Below are positions 1-22,171 of a stretch of 34,753 nt of DNA, in pieces; the stretch's first letter is position 1; every line of letters begins with the position of its first letter. The position numbers were made by a program, and so were the translations under genes. The DNA lies in assembly GCA_016838885.1 (NCBI GenBank), contig JAEKNW010000298.1, positions 1 to 34,753 on the forward strand. The letters are read 5' to 3'. Origin of the DNA: Candidatus Cloacimonadota bacterium. Lineage in GTDB: Bacteria > Cloacimonadota > Cloacimonadia > Cloacimonadales > JAFGVF01. The notes beneath the pieces were generated by a model. The model searched no databases and was not told the origin of the DNA. It worked only from the letters and a program-made list of their open reading frames with translations.

Positions 1-185
1 AATGCAGTAGATCTTTGAGAATAGCACTATATTCTTTTGCAAAAGTAACTTCCATAATTTTCATGAATATATATATTATATGCCTTCAAATTCTGTAAGC
101 TATTTTGCTAAAAGAATCTGTACTCTTCGCCTGTGATACGTAGCTTTAGCGAAGTATTACTAAAGCTCTACTGCACCATTCGGGT
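1..185. mobile_element. MITE-like palindromic element, copy A (longest form, left end cut by window)
   Basis: The sequence starts inside a terminal inverted repeat (AATGCAGTAG) and ends in the opposite copy (CTCTACTGCACCATTCGGG, 166-184). Between them lies the longest interior of the family: a palindromic ATTCTTTTGCAAAAG motif, an AT-rich centre (GAATATATATATTATATGCC) and a matching TTTTGCTAAAAG on the other side. About 30 bp near 128-160 (around CCTGTGATACGTAGC) are not seen in copy F, so this copy may carry a small insertion. It is followed by TTA at 186-188. There is no ORF inside, so it would be non-autonomous. The family assignment rests on comparison with the other copies in this window. 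Confidence 0.75.
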
Positions 186-207
186 TTAACCCAAATAATG
201 CAGTAGG
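186..207. repeat. Solo terminal repeat A' abutting copy A
   Basis: TTA (186-188) is followed by ACCCAAATAATGCAGTAG, which is one end of the MITE-like family without its partner. It lies back to back with the right end of copy A, giving the local palindrome GGGTTTAACCC. The sequence then runs into the A-tract of the argF terminator, so the rest of this copy is missing or was replaced. Confidence 0.65.
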
Positions 208-9450: not shown

Positions 9451-9684
9451 CTACTGCTTCTTTCTGGTTATAATCTGGGTTTTAATCCATTTCCAATTGA
9501 AGCTTATATGAATAATAGCAAAGATTGCAAAGATAATACCTGCACTTTCATGAATCTCTCCTACAAGTTCATCCCCATTAAGAGCTGAGGGGATAATAGC
9601 ATATAAGAGGGCACTTATAATAGTCGTAAGAAAGGCTATAAATAGCACGATATTAATTAAGATTAGAATTTTTCGTTTATTCAT
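9451..9684 (-). CDS. Small DUF4405-like membrane protein, possible haem binder
   Basis: The 77-aa protein has two hydrophobic helices (about 7-30 and 47-62) with an extracytoplasmic loop between them and a basic C-terminus. HESAG (H45) and AIIHISFNW (H59) match the pattern of DUF4405, a family proposed to bind haem through histidines at the membrane. The start is well supported by AAAGGAG seven bases upstream. It probably forms a two-gene unit with the small exported protein that follows. A role in membrane electron transfer is possible but is inference from family resemblance; such short proteins are easily misassigned. Confidence 0.65.
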   Translation of the reverse strand: MNKRKILILINIVLFIAFLTTIISALLYAIIPSALNGDELVGEIHESAGIIFAIFAIIHISFNWKWIKTQIITRKKQ

Positions 9685-9742
9685 TTAAGCTCCTTTATTC
9701 ATTTGTAATATAATAACTAATTTAGAATGCAAAGCAAATTTA

Positions 9743-9814
9743 ACCCGAATGATGCAGTAGAGCTTTAGAGAAGAATCTGCACTCTTCCCTAAAACTCTAC
9801 TGCATCATTCGGGA
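9743..9814. mobile_element. MITE-like element, copy B (short, complete)
   Basis: A 72-bp element bounded by perfect 19-bp inverted repeats (CCCGAATGATGCAGTAGAG, 9744-9762, and its complement, 9795-9813) and by TTA on both sides (9740-9742, 9815-9817). The repeats continue inward (CTTTAGAGAAGA against TCTTCCCTAAA), so the whole element can fold into one hairpin with an 8-nt loop. It lies between the hydrogenase terminator and the DUF4405-like gene, within about 60 bp of the latter's start codon. It lacks the AT-rich core of copies A and F. Confidence 0.85.
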
Positions 9815-9849
9815 TTATTTCCACCAGACTTTAACTTGAGCCTCTTTAT

Positions 9850-16854: not shown

Positions 16855-18012
16855 ATGCAAATGCAGAATAAAAATTTATTCCTAATTTTAGCTTTGCTGC
16901 TTTGTGTCTCTTTCTTATCAGCACAAATAAAAGTTCAGTTTACTGATAGTGATGAATACTACTTGCTTGAGACTTTTGAGCATAAGAAACTAAACTATTT
17001 TAAGCTTGCAGATTTTAATGCCATAGTTAAAGGACAAATGAAAGAGATTCTTTTAGATGATCGTCTTCATTTCTATGTCTTTAAAAAGGAGATTTCTTTT
17101 TGTATAGAAAGTTCTTTTGCTCACGTAGCCAGTTACAATAATAAAACAGGTTTATTGGAGGATGAATACTATAACTTCTATTATCCAATAAGCTATATAA
17201 AAGGTGAGTATTCTCTCCCAGAACATTTTTTACTAGATGTATTTCCTCAAATATTCCCTAACTCTGTCTATTATGAAGATGGTTTTTTGTTATTGAATCA
17301 AAGAAATAATTCATCCATCAAAGTTATCGTTCTTGATCCGGGGCATGGGGGAAAGGATCCTGGAGCTGAAGGAGCTAATGGATTACAAGAAAAACATATA
17401 GTTCTAAATATTGCCAAGAAATTGAAAGTTAGAATTGAAGAAGAATTAGATGTTAGAGTCTTATTAACCAGAGAAGATGATTCTTTTGTATCATTGAAGG
17501 ATAGGACCTTATTCGCAAACGCTAATAATGCGGATCTTTTCATCTCAATTCATACAAATGCAGCAGAAAATAAAAAAGCTCATGGAATAGAGGTCTATTA
17601 TCTATCGGAAGCAAAAAATGATGAATCAAGAGCAGCTCAAGCTCTAGAGAATGCTGTTGTTATCGAATTTGAAGGGGAAGAAGCCTTACAGGAATATTCT
17701 CAAGCAGATTATGTGATTAGTGATTTAATCCAATCTGCCCAACTGATAGAGAGTATAAATTTAGCTTATAAGTTTCAAAATAATTTAGTTCTAGAAACTG
17801 AAGCTTCAGATCGAGGAGTTAAATCTGCTAATTTCTTTGTTTTGCGTGGAGCCTTTATGCCATCTATTCTCGTAGAGCTAGGCTTTATCTCAAACTTCGA
17901 AGAGGGGAAGAAGCTTAACAAAGAAAACTATCAAGATAATTTAGTGGAGAGTATGTTTTATGGTATAAAATCTTTCAAGCTTCATTATGACAGGAATAAC
18001 AGTTTAGAGTGA
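16855..18012 (+). CDS. N-acetylmuramoyl-L-alanine amidase (Amidase_3)
   Basis: A periplasmic zinc hydrolase that cuts the amide bond between MurNAc and the stem peptide. A signal peptide (about 1-23, ending FLSAQ) and an N-terminal domain of about 120 aa precede the catalytic domain (about 155-380). Zinc ligands and catalytic residues are visible: H in LDPGHGGKDPGAEG, E in LQEKHIVL, H in SIHTNA, and E in SILVELGFISN. It starts 2 bp after smpB and its TGA shares a base with the ATG of the next gene. It most likely serves cell division or wall turnover; AmiC-type is the nearest description, but no AMIN domain was recognised. Confidence 0.93.
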   Translation: MQMQNKNLFLILALLLCVSFLSAQIKVQFTDSDEYYLLETFEHKKLNYFKLADFNAIVKGQMKEILLDDRLHFYVFKKEISFCIESSFAHVASYNNKTGLLEDEYYNFYYPISYIKGEYSLPEHFLLDVFPQIFPNSVYYEDGFLLLNQRNNSSIKVIVLDPGHGGKDPGAEGANGLQEKHIVLNIAKKLKVRIEEELDVRVLLTREDDSFVSLKDRTLFANANNADLFISIHTNAAENKKAHGIEVYYLSEAKNDESRAAQALENAVVIEFEGEEALQEYSQADYVISDLIQSAQLIESINLAYKFQNNLVLETEASDRGVKSANFFVLRGAFMPSILVELGFISNFEEGKKLNKENYQDNLVESMFYGIKSFKLHYDRNNSLE

Positions 18013-18899
18013 TGAAAGAGATTCATCCCAAGCGACTAGTTCGTGAGAAAAGAATTAAAGACAGGTTAAAAGAAAAATCTCATATACATAAGAAAGCCCA
18101 CCCTTTTTCAAAGGTTGTTAAAGTTATTTTTGACACAATGGGTTTGACGGCTTTAGGATTCAGAAATACCCAAAGAATTGCATGTAAACATATTGAACTA
18201 TCTCATCCCAAGATTGGAAAAGAGTTTAATGATTTTAAGATTATGTTTATTTCAGATTTTCATCTTAATGGGAACCCATCTTTAATAAAACCAATAAAAA
18301 AGATTCTAAGAAAAGAGAGTGTTGATATTTATTTGTTGGGTGGCGATTATCAGGTGAATGCTTTTGGAAACTATACAGTCATAAAATCCCTCTATACTGA
18401 GCTCTTCAATGTTATCGATACTTCCAAAGTTTATGCTGTTTTGGGAAATCATGATGAATATAAAATTGCTGAGATTCTAAACGACTTAGGTGTTAATATG
18501 TTACTTAATGAGTTTATAACTATCAAAAGAGGTGATGAATCCATAATAATCACGGGTATCGATGATTCAGATCGTTATTATTCTCATGAATTTCCATCTT
18601 TACCAAAGAAAATTAATGATTATAAGATACTCTTGACTCATTCTCCCAATATCTATAAAGAAGCAGAAAAAGAAGGTTATGATCTTCTTCTTGCCGGTCA
18701 TACTCACTCAGGTCAAATCTGTTATCCGGGCGGGATTCCCATAGTTAGATTTACTAAATTTCCACACAAATACTCTTACTCTTTGTGGAAATACAAAACA
18801 ATGCAAGGATACACAACTGCCGGAGTTGGTAATACCTGGGTCAATGTCCGCTTCTTCTGTCCTCCGGAAATTGTGATTATTACACTTAAACCCAAATAA
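18012..18899 (+). CDS. Metallophosphoesterase (YkuE/calcineurin-like)
   Basis: The two-metal phosphoesterase motifs appear in order: SDFHL, GGDYQ, GNHDE, THSPN and GHTHSGQ. This matches the YkuE/UDP-diacylglucosamine-pyrophosphatase-like branch, but substrate cannot be assigned. I use the ATG at 18012, one codon after the track's GTG, because it overlaps the amidase stop as TGATG and gives 295 aa. A basic N-terminus (KRLVREKRIKDRLKEK) may associate with membrane lipids or nucleic acid; no membrane helix is obvious. The last codons (AAA CCC AAA TAA) are the beginning of MITE-like copy C, so the repeat provides the stop codon. Confidence 0.88.
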   Translation: MKEIHPKRLVREKRIKDRLKEKSHIHKKAHPFSKVVKVIFDTMGLTALGFRNTQRIACKHIELSHPKIGKEFNDFKIMFISDFHLNGNPSLIKPIKKILRKESVDIYLLGGDYQVNAFGNYTVIKSLYTELFNVIDTSKVYAVLGNHDEYKIAEILNDLGVNMLLNEFITIKRGDESIIITGIDDSDRYYSHEFPSLPKKINDYKILLTHSPNIYKEAEKEGYDLLLAGHTHSGQICYPGGIPIVRFTKFPHKYSYSLWKYKTMQGYTTAGVGNTWVNVRFFCPPEIVIITLKPK

Positions 18900-19001
18900 T
18901 GCAGTAGAATTTAGGGAAAAAGCGAATAGCACTATCTTCTTTTGCAAAAGTAAGCTACATAATTTCAGGAATATATATATTATATGCCTTAAACCCAAAT
19001 A
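18890..19001. mobile_element. MITE-like element, copy C (truncated, overlaps gene end)
   Basis: Begins with AACCCAAATAATGCAGTAG after a TAA flank, continues through the shared interior (GCGAATAGCACTATCTTCTTTTGCAAAAGTAAGC, then AGGAATATATATATTATATGCC) and stops halfway. It ends with a second CTTAAACCCAAATA in the same orientation; the 14-bp sequence occurs at 18885-18898 and 18988-19001. The right arm seen in copies A and F is absent. It covers the stop codon of the metallophosphoesterase gene and lies upstream of glgP. Confidence 0.75.
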
Positions 19002-19085: not shown

Positions 19086-21557
19086 ATGAATAGAGAAGAT
19101 TCAATATTTTTTTCAGATCAAATAGAACATAAACATAAAAGTTTGAGAGATAGGTTTTATTATCATTTGGAATACACAATGATCAAAGATAAAACAACTA
19201 TCAAAGCACGTGATATATATCAATCTTTAGCTTTAACCATCAAGGAAAATCTAATAGAAAAGTGGTTAAGAACAGATTATGAATATCATAAAAGTAACCG
19301 AAAAATGGTTAATTACTTATCCATGGAATTCTTGGTAGGCCGCTTAATGATAGACTCATTAAACAGTATGGGTATTTTGGAAGAGGTTCGTGAGTTAGTT
19401 AAAGAGCTAAACTATTCATTAAGTGATATTGAAGAGTTAGAACCGGATATGGGCTTGGGTTCAGGGGGATTAGGTAGATTAGCTGCTTGCTTCATGGATT
19501 CCTTAGCTACCCATAACTATCCTGCGATGGGTTATGGAATTAGATATGAGTTTGGTATTTTCAAGCAGTTAATTAGACAAGGTTATCAAGTTGAAGAACC
19601 TGATAACTGGCTACGAGCGGGAAATCCATGGGAGATTAGAAGACCTGAGATTACTTATAGAGTTAAATTTGGTGGTCGGGTTGAACATTACCAGCGGGAA
19701 GATGGCAAAATCTTATATTACTGGGTTGATACAGAAGATATCATGGCAGTTGCTTGGGATATTCCTGTCTTAGGCTATGAAACTAACAATGTGAATACCC
19801 TTAGATTATGGCAAGCTCAAGCTACAGATGATTTCGATTTTGATTACTTTAATACAGGTGATTATATAAAAGCGGTTGAAAAGAAAAACATTTCAGAGAA
19901 TATTTCAAAAGTTCTTTATCCTAATGATAACTTCCATCTAGGAAAAGTGTTAAGACTTAAACAAGAGTATTTCTTTGTCTCAGCAACACTTCAAGATATT
20001 TTTGCAAATTTCAAGAAGCATTGTCGTGATTTTAATCAAATCCCTGATAAAATTGCTATTCAATTAAATGATACTCATCCTGCTTTAGCAATACCTGAAC
20101 TGATGAGAATATTAATTGATCAAGAAAGATTAGAATGGGATAAAGCCTGGGAAATTACTAAAAAAACTATTGCTTATACTAATCATACTGTCTTACCTGA
20201 AGCCCTAGAAAAGTGGGGATATAACTTGCTTCAAGAGCTCCTTCCTCGTCATCTTCAGATTATCCAAGAAATTAATCTCAATCTTCTTAATAGAGTCAAT
20301 AAGCTCTATCCCGGTAATATGTATAAGCTAAAGACAATGTCAATTATTGAAGAAGGCCAGCAAAAACATGTTCGAATGGCTAACCTTTGTATTGAAGGAT
20401 CATTCTCTGTTAATGGTGTAGCTAAGCTACATTCTGAAATTATTAAAGAAAAGATATTCAAAGATTTCTATGAGTTATATCCTGAAAAATTCAATAATAA
20501 AACCAATGGCATCACCCAAAGGAGGTGGTTAGATTCCTGTAATAAGCATTTAGCAAGCTATATCACTTCTTTGATTGGAGATGCTTGGAAGAAAGATCTC
20601 TTTGAGTTAAAAAAACTTGAGGAATTTTATGATAATGATGATGTCCTAAATCATATTAGAGAGCATAAATTAATAAATAAAAAGCGGCTAACCAAAAGAA
20701 TATATAAACTAACCGGTGTCCGCGTTAACCCTAATTCACTTTTTGATGTTCAAGTCAAAAGAATGCATGAATATAAAAGACAATTGTTAAATATCTTACA
20801 TATTATTCATCTTTATAATAAGATTAAAGAGAATCCTGAAGCTGATTGGACCCCTAGAACTATTATTTTCTCAGGTAAAGCAGCGCCTAGTTACTATGTT
20901 GCCAAAAACATCATAAAGTTGATAAATGCTGTTGGAGTCAAAATCAACTCTGATCTCCAAATAAAAGACCTTCTCAAAGTTGTCTTTATTCCAAACTACT
21001 CAGTCTCTCTGGCTGAGATTATAATCCCAGCTGCAGACTTATCAGAACAAATTTCAACAGCCGGTTTCGAAGCCTCAGGTACCGGGAATATGAAATTCGC
21101 ACTCAACGGTGCTCTCACTGTTGGTACTCTCGACGGTGCTAATGTGGAGATGAAAGAGGAGTTCGGAGACGAAAATATTTATATTTTTGGCTTGAAAGCA
21201 GAGGATGTAGTCCGGATGAAACAAGAAGGCTATTATCCGGAAAATTACTATAACTCAGATGCTAGTTTAAAAAAAGTTCTTGATATGATTAAATACGATT
21301 ATTTTAATCAGACTGAACCCGGTATTTTTCAACCAATTTTAGATACACTTTTAAAGAATGGAGACTACTTTATGGTATTAGCTGATTTTCATTCTTACTG
21401 TGAGATGAATGATACTATTTCTAATGATTTTAAAGATACTAAATTATGGTATAACAAAGTTCTTCTGAATATCGCTAGGTCAGGAAAATTCTCTTCTGAT
21501 AGAACCATCCATGAATATGCCAAAGATATCTGGAATCTGCAGCCTTTAAAGGTCTGA
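19086..21557 (+). CDS. glgP: Glycogen/starch phosphorylase
   Basis: Releases glucose-1-phosphate from alpha-1,4-glucan using phosphate and pyridoxal phosphate. The 823-aa length is typical. Recognisable blocks are NYLSMEFLVGRLM, GLGSGGLGRLAACFMDS, YGIRYEFGIF, QLNDTHPALAIPELMR, GVAKLHSEIIK, FNNKTNGITQRRWL, DVQVKRMHEYKRQLLN and the PLP-lysine segment EASGTGNMKFALNGALTVGTLDGANVEM. The full catalytic set is present, so it should be active. AAAGGA about 10 bases upstream supports the start. It is a single gene between two repeat copies; no other glycogen gene is nearby. The cell therefore stores, or takes in, an alpha-glucan as a carbon reserve. Confidence 0.97.
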   Translation: MNREDSIFFSDQIEHKHKSLRDRFYYHLEYTMIKDKTTIKARDIYQSLALTIKENLIEKWLRTDYEYHKSNRKMVNYLSMEFLVGRLMIDSLNSMGILEEVRELVKELNYSLSDIEELEPDMGLGSGGLGRLAACFMDSLATHNYPAMGYGIRYEFGIFKQLIRQGYQVEEPDNWLRAGNPWEIRRPEITYRVKFGGRVEHYQREDGKILYYWVDTEDIMAVAWDIPVLGYETNNVNTLRLWQAQATDDFDFDYFNTGDYIKAVEKKNISENISKVLYPNDNFHLGKVLRLKQEYFFVSATLQDIFANFKKHCRDFNQIPDKIAIQLNDTHPALAIPELMRILIDQERLEWDKAWEITKKTIAYTNHTVLPEALEKWGYNLLQELLPRHLQIIQEINLNLLNRVNKLYPGNMYKLKTMSIIEEGQQKHVRMANLCIEGSFSVNGVAKLHSEIIKEKIFKDFYELYPEKFNNKTNGITQRRWLDSCNKHLASYITSLIGDAWKKDLFELKKLEEFYDNDDVLNHIREHKLINKKRLTKRIYKLTGVRVNPNSLFDVQVKRMHEYKRQLLNILHIIHLYNKIKENPEADWTPRTIIFSGKAAPSYYVAKNIIKLINAVGVKINSDLQIKDLLKVVFIPNYSVSLAEIIIPAADLSEQISTAGFEASGTGNMKFALNGALTVGTLDGANVEMKEEFGDENIYIFGLKAEDVVRMKQEGYYPENYYNSDASLKKVLDMIKYDYFNQTEPGIFQPILDTLLKNGDYFMVLADFHSYCEMNDTISNDFKDTKLWYNKVLLNIARSGKFSSDRTIHEYAKDIWNLQPLKV

Positions 21558-21593: not shown

Positions 21594-21640
21594 TAAACCC
21601 AAATGGTGCAATAGGCCTTTGCGAATAGCACTCTTCATCA
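21594..21640. repeat. MITE-like fragment, copy D
   Basis: TAA-AACCCAAATGGTGCAATAGG, followed by CTTTGCGAATAGCACTCTTC, matches the left arm of the family with several changes. No right arm follows before copy E begins at 21686. It looks like an old, partly deleted copy; the right boundary is approximate. Confidence 0.55.
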
Positions 21641-21685: not shown

Positions 21686-21779
21686 ACCCGAATGGTGCAG
21701 TAGAGCTTTAGAGAAGAGTGCAGATTCTTTTGCAAAAGAATATAGTGCTATTCTCAAAGATCTACTGCATTATTTGGGA
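21686..21779. mobile_element. MITE-like element, copy E (94 bp, complete)
   Basis: Bounded by ACCCGAATGGTGCAGTAGA and TCTACTGCATTATTTGGGA and by TTA on both sides (21683-21685, 21780-21782). The inner arms also match (CTTTAGAGAAGAGTGCA against TGCTATTCTCAAAGA), and the centre is the perfect palindrome ATTCTTTTGCAAAAGAAT. It equals the reverse complement of copy A without the AT-rich core of roughly 60 bp. It lies between the convergent glgP and receiver genes, where its hairpin could act on both transcripts. Confidence 0.85.
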
Positions 21780-21796
21780 TTAAATAAATGATTTTC

Positions 21797-22171
21797 TTAT
21801 TCAGTAGAAAGAATCATTTCCAGAGTCTCTAAGAGAGTATCCTGGGAGATAGGTTTAGTTAGATAGTAATCACAGCCAGCATTGAGAGCAATTATTTTTT
21901 CTTCAGGGTAAGCATAAGCTGTCAGGGCAATGATAGGCTTTTTATAATCTAATTTTCTTATTTCGCTAGTAGCTTCTATACCATCAATAAGAGGCATTTT
22001 TATATCCATCAAAATAGCATCAATTCTATCAGCTTCATGCTTGATAACTTCAATTGCCTCTGCTCCGTTTTCAGCGTGTATAATATCATAATGCCTAGAT
22101 ATGTAAGCTTGAACTAGGGTGAAGTTGTCCGGTTGATCTTCAGCAACCAAAATTAGTTTCTTATTTGTCAT
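21797..22171 (-). CDS. Stand-alone response-regulator receiver domain
   Basis: A single REC domain of 124 aa. It shows the acidic pair in VAEDQPDN (E11, D12), the phosphoacceptor D56 (AILMDIKMP), T84 in ALTAY and K106 in YYLTKPIS. No output domain follows, as in CheY- or Spo0F-like relay proteins. It is last in a three-gene set and overlaps the end of the 536-aa kinase by 11 bp, so it is most likely phosphorylated by these kinases. The target, such as a DNA-binding regulator, motor or enzyme, is not in the window. Confidence 0.92.
   Translation of the reverse strand: MTNKKLILVAEDQPDNFTLVQAYISRHYDIIHAENGAEAIEVIKHEADRIDAILMDIKMPLIDGIEATSEIRKLDYKKPIIALTAYAYPEEKIIALNAGCDYYLTKPISQDTLLETLEMILSTE

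Follow-up and report, generated by a model that had tools for sequence, protein, structure and literature searches.

Intergenic hairpin repeats in a Cloacimonadota genome, very probably a MITE family of IS1380 insertion sequences

The IS1380 family of insertion sequences (NF033539; PF13701), e.g., ISEcp1 and an annotated element of Aliarcobacter cibarius, is marked by ends starting with CCC and a 5-bp AT-rich target-site duplication (TSD). The IS1380 elements such as ISEcp1 are movers of resistance genes, and the TTAA-CCC layout is similar to that of the eukaryotic piggyBac. The IS1380 transposases serve as an outgroup for piggyBac (PMC10813416), and 5-bp direct repeats at AT-rich targets have been described for ISEcp1 (PMC7527135). 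The repeats described here are short, hairpin-forming and intergenic with ends common to an IS family, likewise the Correia elements, MITEPye1 and MITEAba12. An autonomous partner in the same genome is not demanded by most definitions of a MITE. The partner family is IS1380 for the present MITE, whereas MITEPye1 is ascribed to IS1182, with 1-3 copies per chromosome (PMC11578231). In the part of the MITE literature covered by our search, no MITE derived from IS1380 was named.

The window, i.e., the whole stretch of 34,753 nucleotides that was analysed, is contig C298 of a source genome of 3.34 Mb (350 contigs, 99.3% complete). The 17-bp end CCCRAATRRTGCAGTAG was found at 10 positions of the window with up to 3 mismatches, against 0.29 expected from shuffles, and none of the 100 shuffles of the window attained 10 matches. 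The match at 9451-9467 contained 3 mismatches and is probably due to chance. The copies and their parts were found at the following positions.

1..184, + strand: copy A, 161-bp type, model positions 8-161 (nhmmer E 7e-44), with the A end cut by the contig start
168-184, + strand: B end of copy A, end match
190..206, + strand: copy A', an isolated A end with an exact 17-bp match, a remnant
9739..9743, + strand: 5-bp target flank TTTAA on the left of copy B
9744..9813, + strand: copy B, the finding under study, 70 bp, internally deleted, with two B-type ends, a near-perfect palindrome
18891..18991, + strand: copy D, A end, model positions 1-94 (nhmmer E 2e-21), with the far half gone
21598..21634, + strand: degenerate A-type end fragment, 1 mismatch (nhmmer 1-37)
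21687..21778, - strand: copy E, 92 bp, internally deleted, with a B end and an A end, flanked by TTTAA and ATTAA
34629..34753, - strand: copy F, 125 bp of a full-type element with its B end (nhmmer 161-38, E 6e-37)

Copy A was found to contain a nested insert of ~30 bp with CGTAGCTTTAGCGAAG and was separated from copy A' by TTTAA. Copy B falls inside the interval 9740-9817 given by an earlier note on this DNA, and its right flank at 9814-9818 contained ATTAT, so its duplication is inexact. Copy D and the fragment at 21598 are remnants, and the first 9 bases of copy D (CCCAAATAA) were found to be the source of the stop codon for the ORF 18009-18899. The ORFs 19086-21557 (+) and 21797-22171 (-) converge on copy E, which lies between them. 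Copies A and F are incomplete because of the contig ends and not because of biology. No known RNA family was matched in an Rfam search of the window.

The full element was found to be 161 bp in length with inverted ends of 17 bp, which differed slightly from each other. The A end (CCCAAATAATGCAGTAG) starts with CCCAAATAATG whereas the B end (CCCGAATGRTGCAGTAG) starts with CCCGAATGRTG. The copies were analysed in detail in ~1.11 Mb of the 3.34 Mb genome, where 74 facing end pairs were found with a modal size of 161-162 bp, and an A end was joined to a B end in 61 of them. The 161-bp consensus was folded end to end as a single imperfect hairpin (-29 kcal/mol as DNA, z -7.5). The internally deleted forms of ~50-110 bp kept both ends and had lost the middle, with a recurrent class of 80 bp, and the forms longer than 161 bp contained nested palindromic inserts. 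The modal 161 bp and the derivatives from about 50 bp are within the size range of a MITE, a noncoding element of about 50-500 bp with terminal inverted repeats.

The nested palindromic insert of ~30 bp with the core CGTAGCTTTAGCGAAG was found inside several copies (window 1-184, L103:17438-17627, L063:10047-10237 and L105:17343-17622), and 26 matches to the core were present in 1.11 Mb. Further palindromes nested in the copies were CCCCCTGTGTCCCCCTC and GGATTGCGGGCTTCCAGCCCG. One element at L107:8514-9174 was found to contain an insert of ~500 bp near the central palindrome, with the insert ends GGCCCTATCTCAAGTAGAGTGG and CCACTCTACTTGAAAGAGAGCCC, which is possibly another non-autonomous element.

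In the complete 3.34 Mb, the end was found 345 + 328 = 673 times with up to 2 mismatches, while the reversed pattern gave 0 and 1 matches, and the family comprised about 340 copies. The repeat family with shared inverted ends proposed in the earlier note is thus real, both in the window and in the genome-wide search that it had recommended. Its statement that no copy encodes a protein also held, as long ORFs were absent from all the copies and no ORF of at least 100 aa was found inside a copy.

The TSD was found to be 5 bp in length with the consensus TTWAA, directly abutting the CCC...GGG of the element. Among 64 clean-ended pairs, identical 5-bp flanks were found in 30, against 9.9 expected from random re-pairing of the left and right flanks, and none of the 5000 re-pairing shuffles attained 30 exact 5-mers. 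The variable positions of the 5-mer (1, 3 and 5) agreed beyond expectation, and the same 64 pairs contained no excess of duplications of 2, 3, 4 or 6-10 bp. The exact TSD was absent in about half of the copies, and at most one mismatch was present in 33 of the 42 scored. The earlier note had described inverted ends of ~19 bp with TTA/TAA flanks and a duplication of 3 bp (TTA) or 2 bp (TA), and had regarded the lack of a consistent short duplication as evidence against transposition. The inverted ends were retained, at 17 bp, and the duplication was constant at 5 bp, whereas the flank reading and both proposed lengths were abandoned. The TTA that adjoins copies B and E on both sides belongs to the AT-rich target, viewed in a shifted register (TTTAA/ATTAT in B and TTTAA/ATTAA in E). 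If the MITE came from a family with TA or TTA duplications (IS630/Tc1-mariner or an IS5 group), the TTA close to both ends of these copies would be accounted for, and TA-duplicating MITEs are common in bacteria (PMC4133298); however, the agreement was specific to 5 bp and these ends were carried by IS1380 elements, and such an origin is extremely improbable.

A filled and an empty site could be compared for the copy at L111:14059-14219. The adjoining tandem array contained ATTCTTCTTATCGATTCAACAACTCAACAA, whereas the filled site was CGATTAAA-element-TTAAACAACTCAACAA. The near-identical site without the element contained a single TTCAA/TTAAA, against two 5-mers when filled, with a difference of one base. 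This is a single case in low-complexity sequence, and the only usable one from a search for joined flanks within the genome, where most of the hits were self-hits or of low complexity.

The same 17-bp end retrieved two elements that encode a transposase, one from a Cloacimonadota genome (L126) and one from a Balneolia genome (L133). The L126 element was found to be 1618 bp in length, with a protein of 469 aa and the TSD GTAAA/GTAAA, and the L133 element contained a protein of 484 aa, with ATAAA and TTAAA as flanks. All 17 bases of the A end were common to the right ends of both elements. The best models for both proteins were those of IS1380, with NF033539 (E 5e-48 for L126 and 2e-56 for L133) and PF13701 (E 5e-24 and 1e-26, respectively); against the curated cut-off of 180 bits for NF033539, L133 scored above and L126 (163.8 bits) slightly below. 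The independently annotated IS1380 element on a plasmid of Aliarcobacter cibarius (NZ_CP043858 near 44.3-45.8 kb) was found to contain the ends CCCGCATTATGCAATAG and CCCAGATTATGCAATAG, flanked by the exact TSD ATAAT/ATAAT. Its right end agreed with the A end at 14 of 17 bases, and its protein was only 30% identical. The IS1380-type inverted ends were thus found in three gene-bearing elements, one of them annotated.

The repeats therefore form, very probably, a MITE family of IS1380 insertion sequences on which a transposase would act in trans. In comparison with the IS1380 elements of ~1.6 kb, the MITE is at most 161 bp in length, contains no transposase, is wholly palindromic and has two diverged ends, A and B. 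The 161-bp interior did not match any of the gene-bearing insertion sequences found, and the link to IS1380 is given by the ends and the TSD. Judged from these sequence features, the element is filed as an IS1380 derivative and not as an autonomous member, because 161 bp leaves no room for a transposase gene. The family that the earlier note did not recognise can now be named by this match of end and TSD, and the insertion sequences with matching ends for which it had advised a search were found in other genomes.

A multicopy element of 346 bp with the same 17-bp ends was found in the related Cloacimonadota genome G050 (JARRCD, isolate DJKA110_ANT-KO_bin.50). It aligned to three stretches of the L126 element, i.e., approximately the first 243 bases, 1236-1299 and the last 49 bases, with 81-89% identity, and retained pieces equivalent to the transposase residues 2-47 and 377-397. 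It is an IS1380 element decayed to a MITE. This element is non-autonomous and multicopy like the 161-bp family, and its interior consists of three joined IS1380 pieces whereas the interior of the 161-bp family contains no recognisable IS. A pair of ends spaced as in the ~160-bp element was found in L128 with the flanks TTAAA/TTAAA.

Several matches to the end were not used. The end in L166 (G031:C30) lies within a broken IS1380 gene, which is a relic with a truncation or an internal deletion, and this match was not counted as evidence. The full-length IS1380 genes of G032, G051 and G054 were found without these ends within the stretches examined. Many exact 17-mer matches in other phyla fall by chance inside coding sequence and were discarded; several of these lie in a gene that is presumably uvrB, reading NNAVEYFVSYYDYYQPEAY.

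The repeats are short, hairpin-forming and intergenic with hundreds of copies, as are the REP/BIME-type palindromes moved by RAYT (Y1, TnpA-REP) through single-strand excision and insertion without target duplication, and one Y1 transposase gene was found in the genome (L308, G000:C151:58379-58726). RAYT-type elements are not known to make target duplications, whereas a 5-bp TSD abuts the present ends. The flanks of the Y1 gene were found to contain a different palindrome, ATCCCTGAAAGGGATT, along with a poor relic of the present ends with 4 mismatches. The RAYT origin was rejected on these two grounds and is very improbable. The ATCCCTGAAAGGGATT palindromes around the RAYT-like gene are apparently its own REP family.

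A pattern of flank plus end was matched in 32 of the 125 genomes of the phylum, the source genome included. It was found 613 times in the source genome followed by 61 times in G099, and it was absent from the same-family genomes G001 and G002 (83% and 72% complete). The relatives sharing the ends were mostly labelled Candidatus Cloacimonadota. An element of ~160 bp with the 161-bp interior was found in G099 and G049, of another family of the order, with 68-74% identity, and the short interior matches of G017, G045 and G092 were left out. In another phylum, repeats with the CCCAAATAATGCAGTAG end and another interior (GCATTATTTGCCCGTAGGG) were found near contig ends in L131 and L158 (Candidatus Omnitrophota isolate RS_11_35), and they form one more family of elements that end in this way.

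By simple ORF calls, 68 of the 75 loci were intergenic, 6 partial and 1 mainly coding. The copies were found between convergent genes in 13 of the 45 scored, against 18 of the 156 intergenic regions of at least 60 bp, lengths being unmatched, and this excess is suggestive at most. Together with the end-to-end fold, the lack of a transposase in the genome and the ~160-bp form in another family of the order, it would suit a long-resident immobile repeat with a host role, e.g., a bidirectional terminator or a stabiliser of mRNA 3' ends. However, hundreds of copies here, none in the two same-family genomes and no more than 61 ends in any other genome searched argue for a lineage-specific amplification, and the best copies were 96-98% identical to the 161-bp consensus. 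Such a role is unlikely as the explanation of the repeats, and it is compatible with their origin by transposition. The non-autonomous MITE proposed in the earlier note was borne out by the inverted ends, the constant TSD, the many and mostly intergenic copies, the absence of a gene and the absence from G001 and G002. The kind of element is ordinary, and its burst here is large and lineage-specific.

The source genome (G000; 350 contigs, 99.3% complete) contained no match to PF13701, NF033539, PF01609 or the two-sequence profile A1, and the control search with PF01609 was positive in 9 of the 14 control genomes. As no IS1380 or other PF01609/PF13701 transposase was detected, the family is either orphaned there or has a partner that the bin lacks. 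Contigs as short as about 1 kb were present in the bin, so an IS contig would not be excluded by its size alone, and the loss of a repeat of odd coverage in binning can be a route to the absence of the partner from the assembly. The anatomy, the TSD and the kinship of the ends are direct evidence; the mobilisation in trans, by an IS1380 transposase absent from the assembly, is what we infer. An IS1380-family transposase would bind the ends of the short elements in trans and would insert them at TTWAA targets by 5-bp staggered cuts. Internal deletion would have produced the forms of 50-92 bp, of which at least the recurrent one of 80 bp may have been mobile in its own right. As for the partner transposase, it would have been lost from the source genome or be missing from the assembly. 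It is also conceivable, though rather doubtful, that the ~160-bp MITE lineage persists across Cloacimonadota families without a resident transposase and has attained about 340 copies in a genome devoid of PF01609/PF13701 transposases, either with visiting IS1380 transposases that it borrows or through a host role acquired by the hairpin.

With the family and its partner named, Cloacimonadota genomes can be annotated for these repeats and masked accordingly. Non-autonomous ends are available here in a large natural set together with their TTWAA targets, and they show clearly what the transposase recognises. The repeats break Cloacimonadota assemblies: 19 of the 102 contig ends examined fall in a copy, against 1.3 expected, and both ends of the window do likewise.

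Other repeats were also observed. Short tandem arrays of the CAACTCAA/CAATTCAA type were scattered in the genome (L111:13974-14059, L107:3515-3613 and L112:15118-15195). Another intergenic repeat family was found to contain TAGGGTAATAAA...GTGTGCACTAATT...TTTGAACAGTCTC (L100:216-301, L105:14354-14251 and L269:14930-15100), and its last 13 bases were matched 31 times with at most 1 mismatch in 1.11 Mb.
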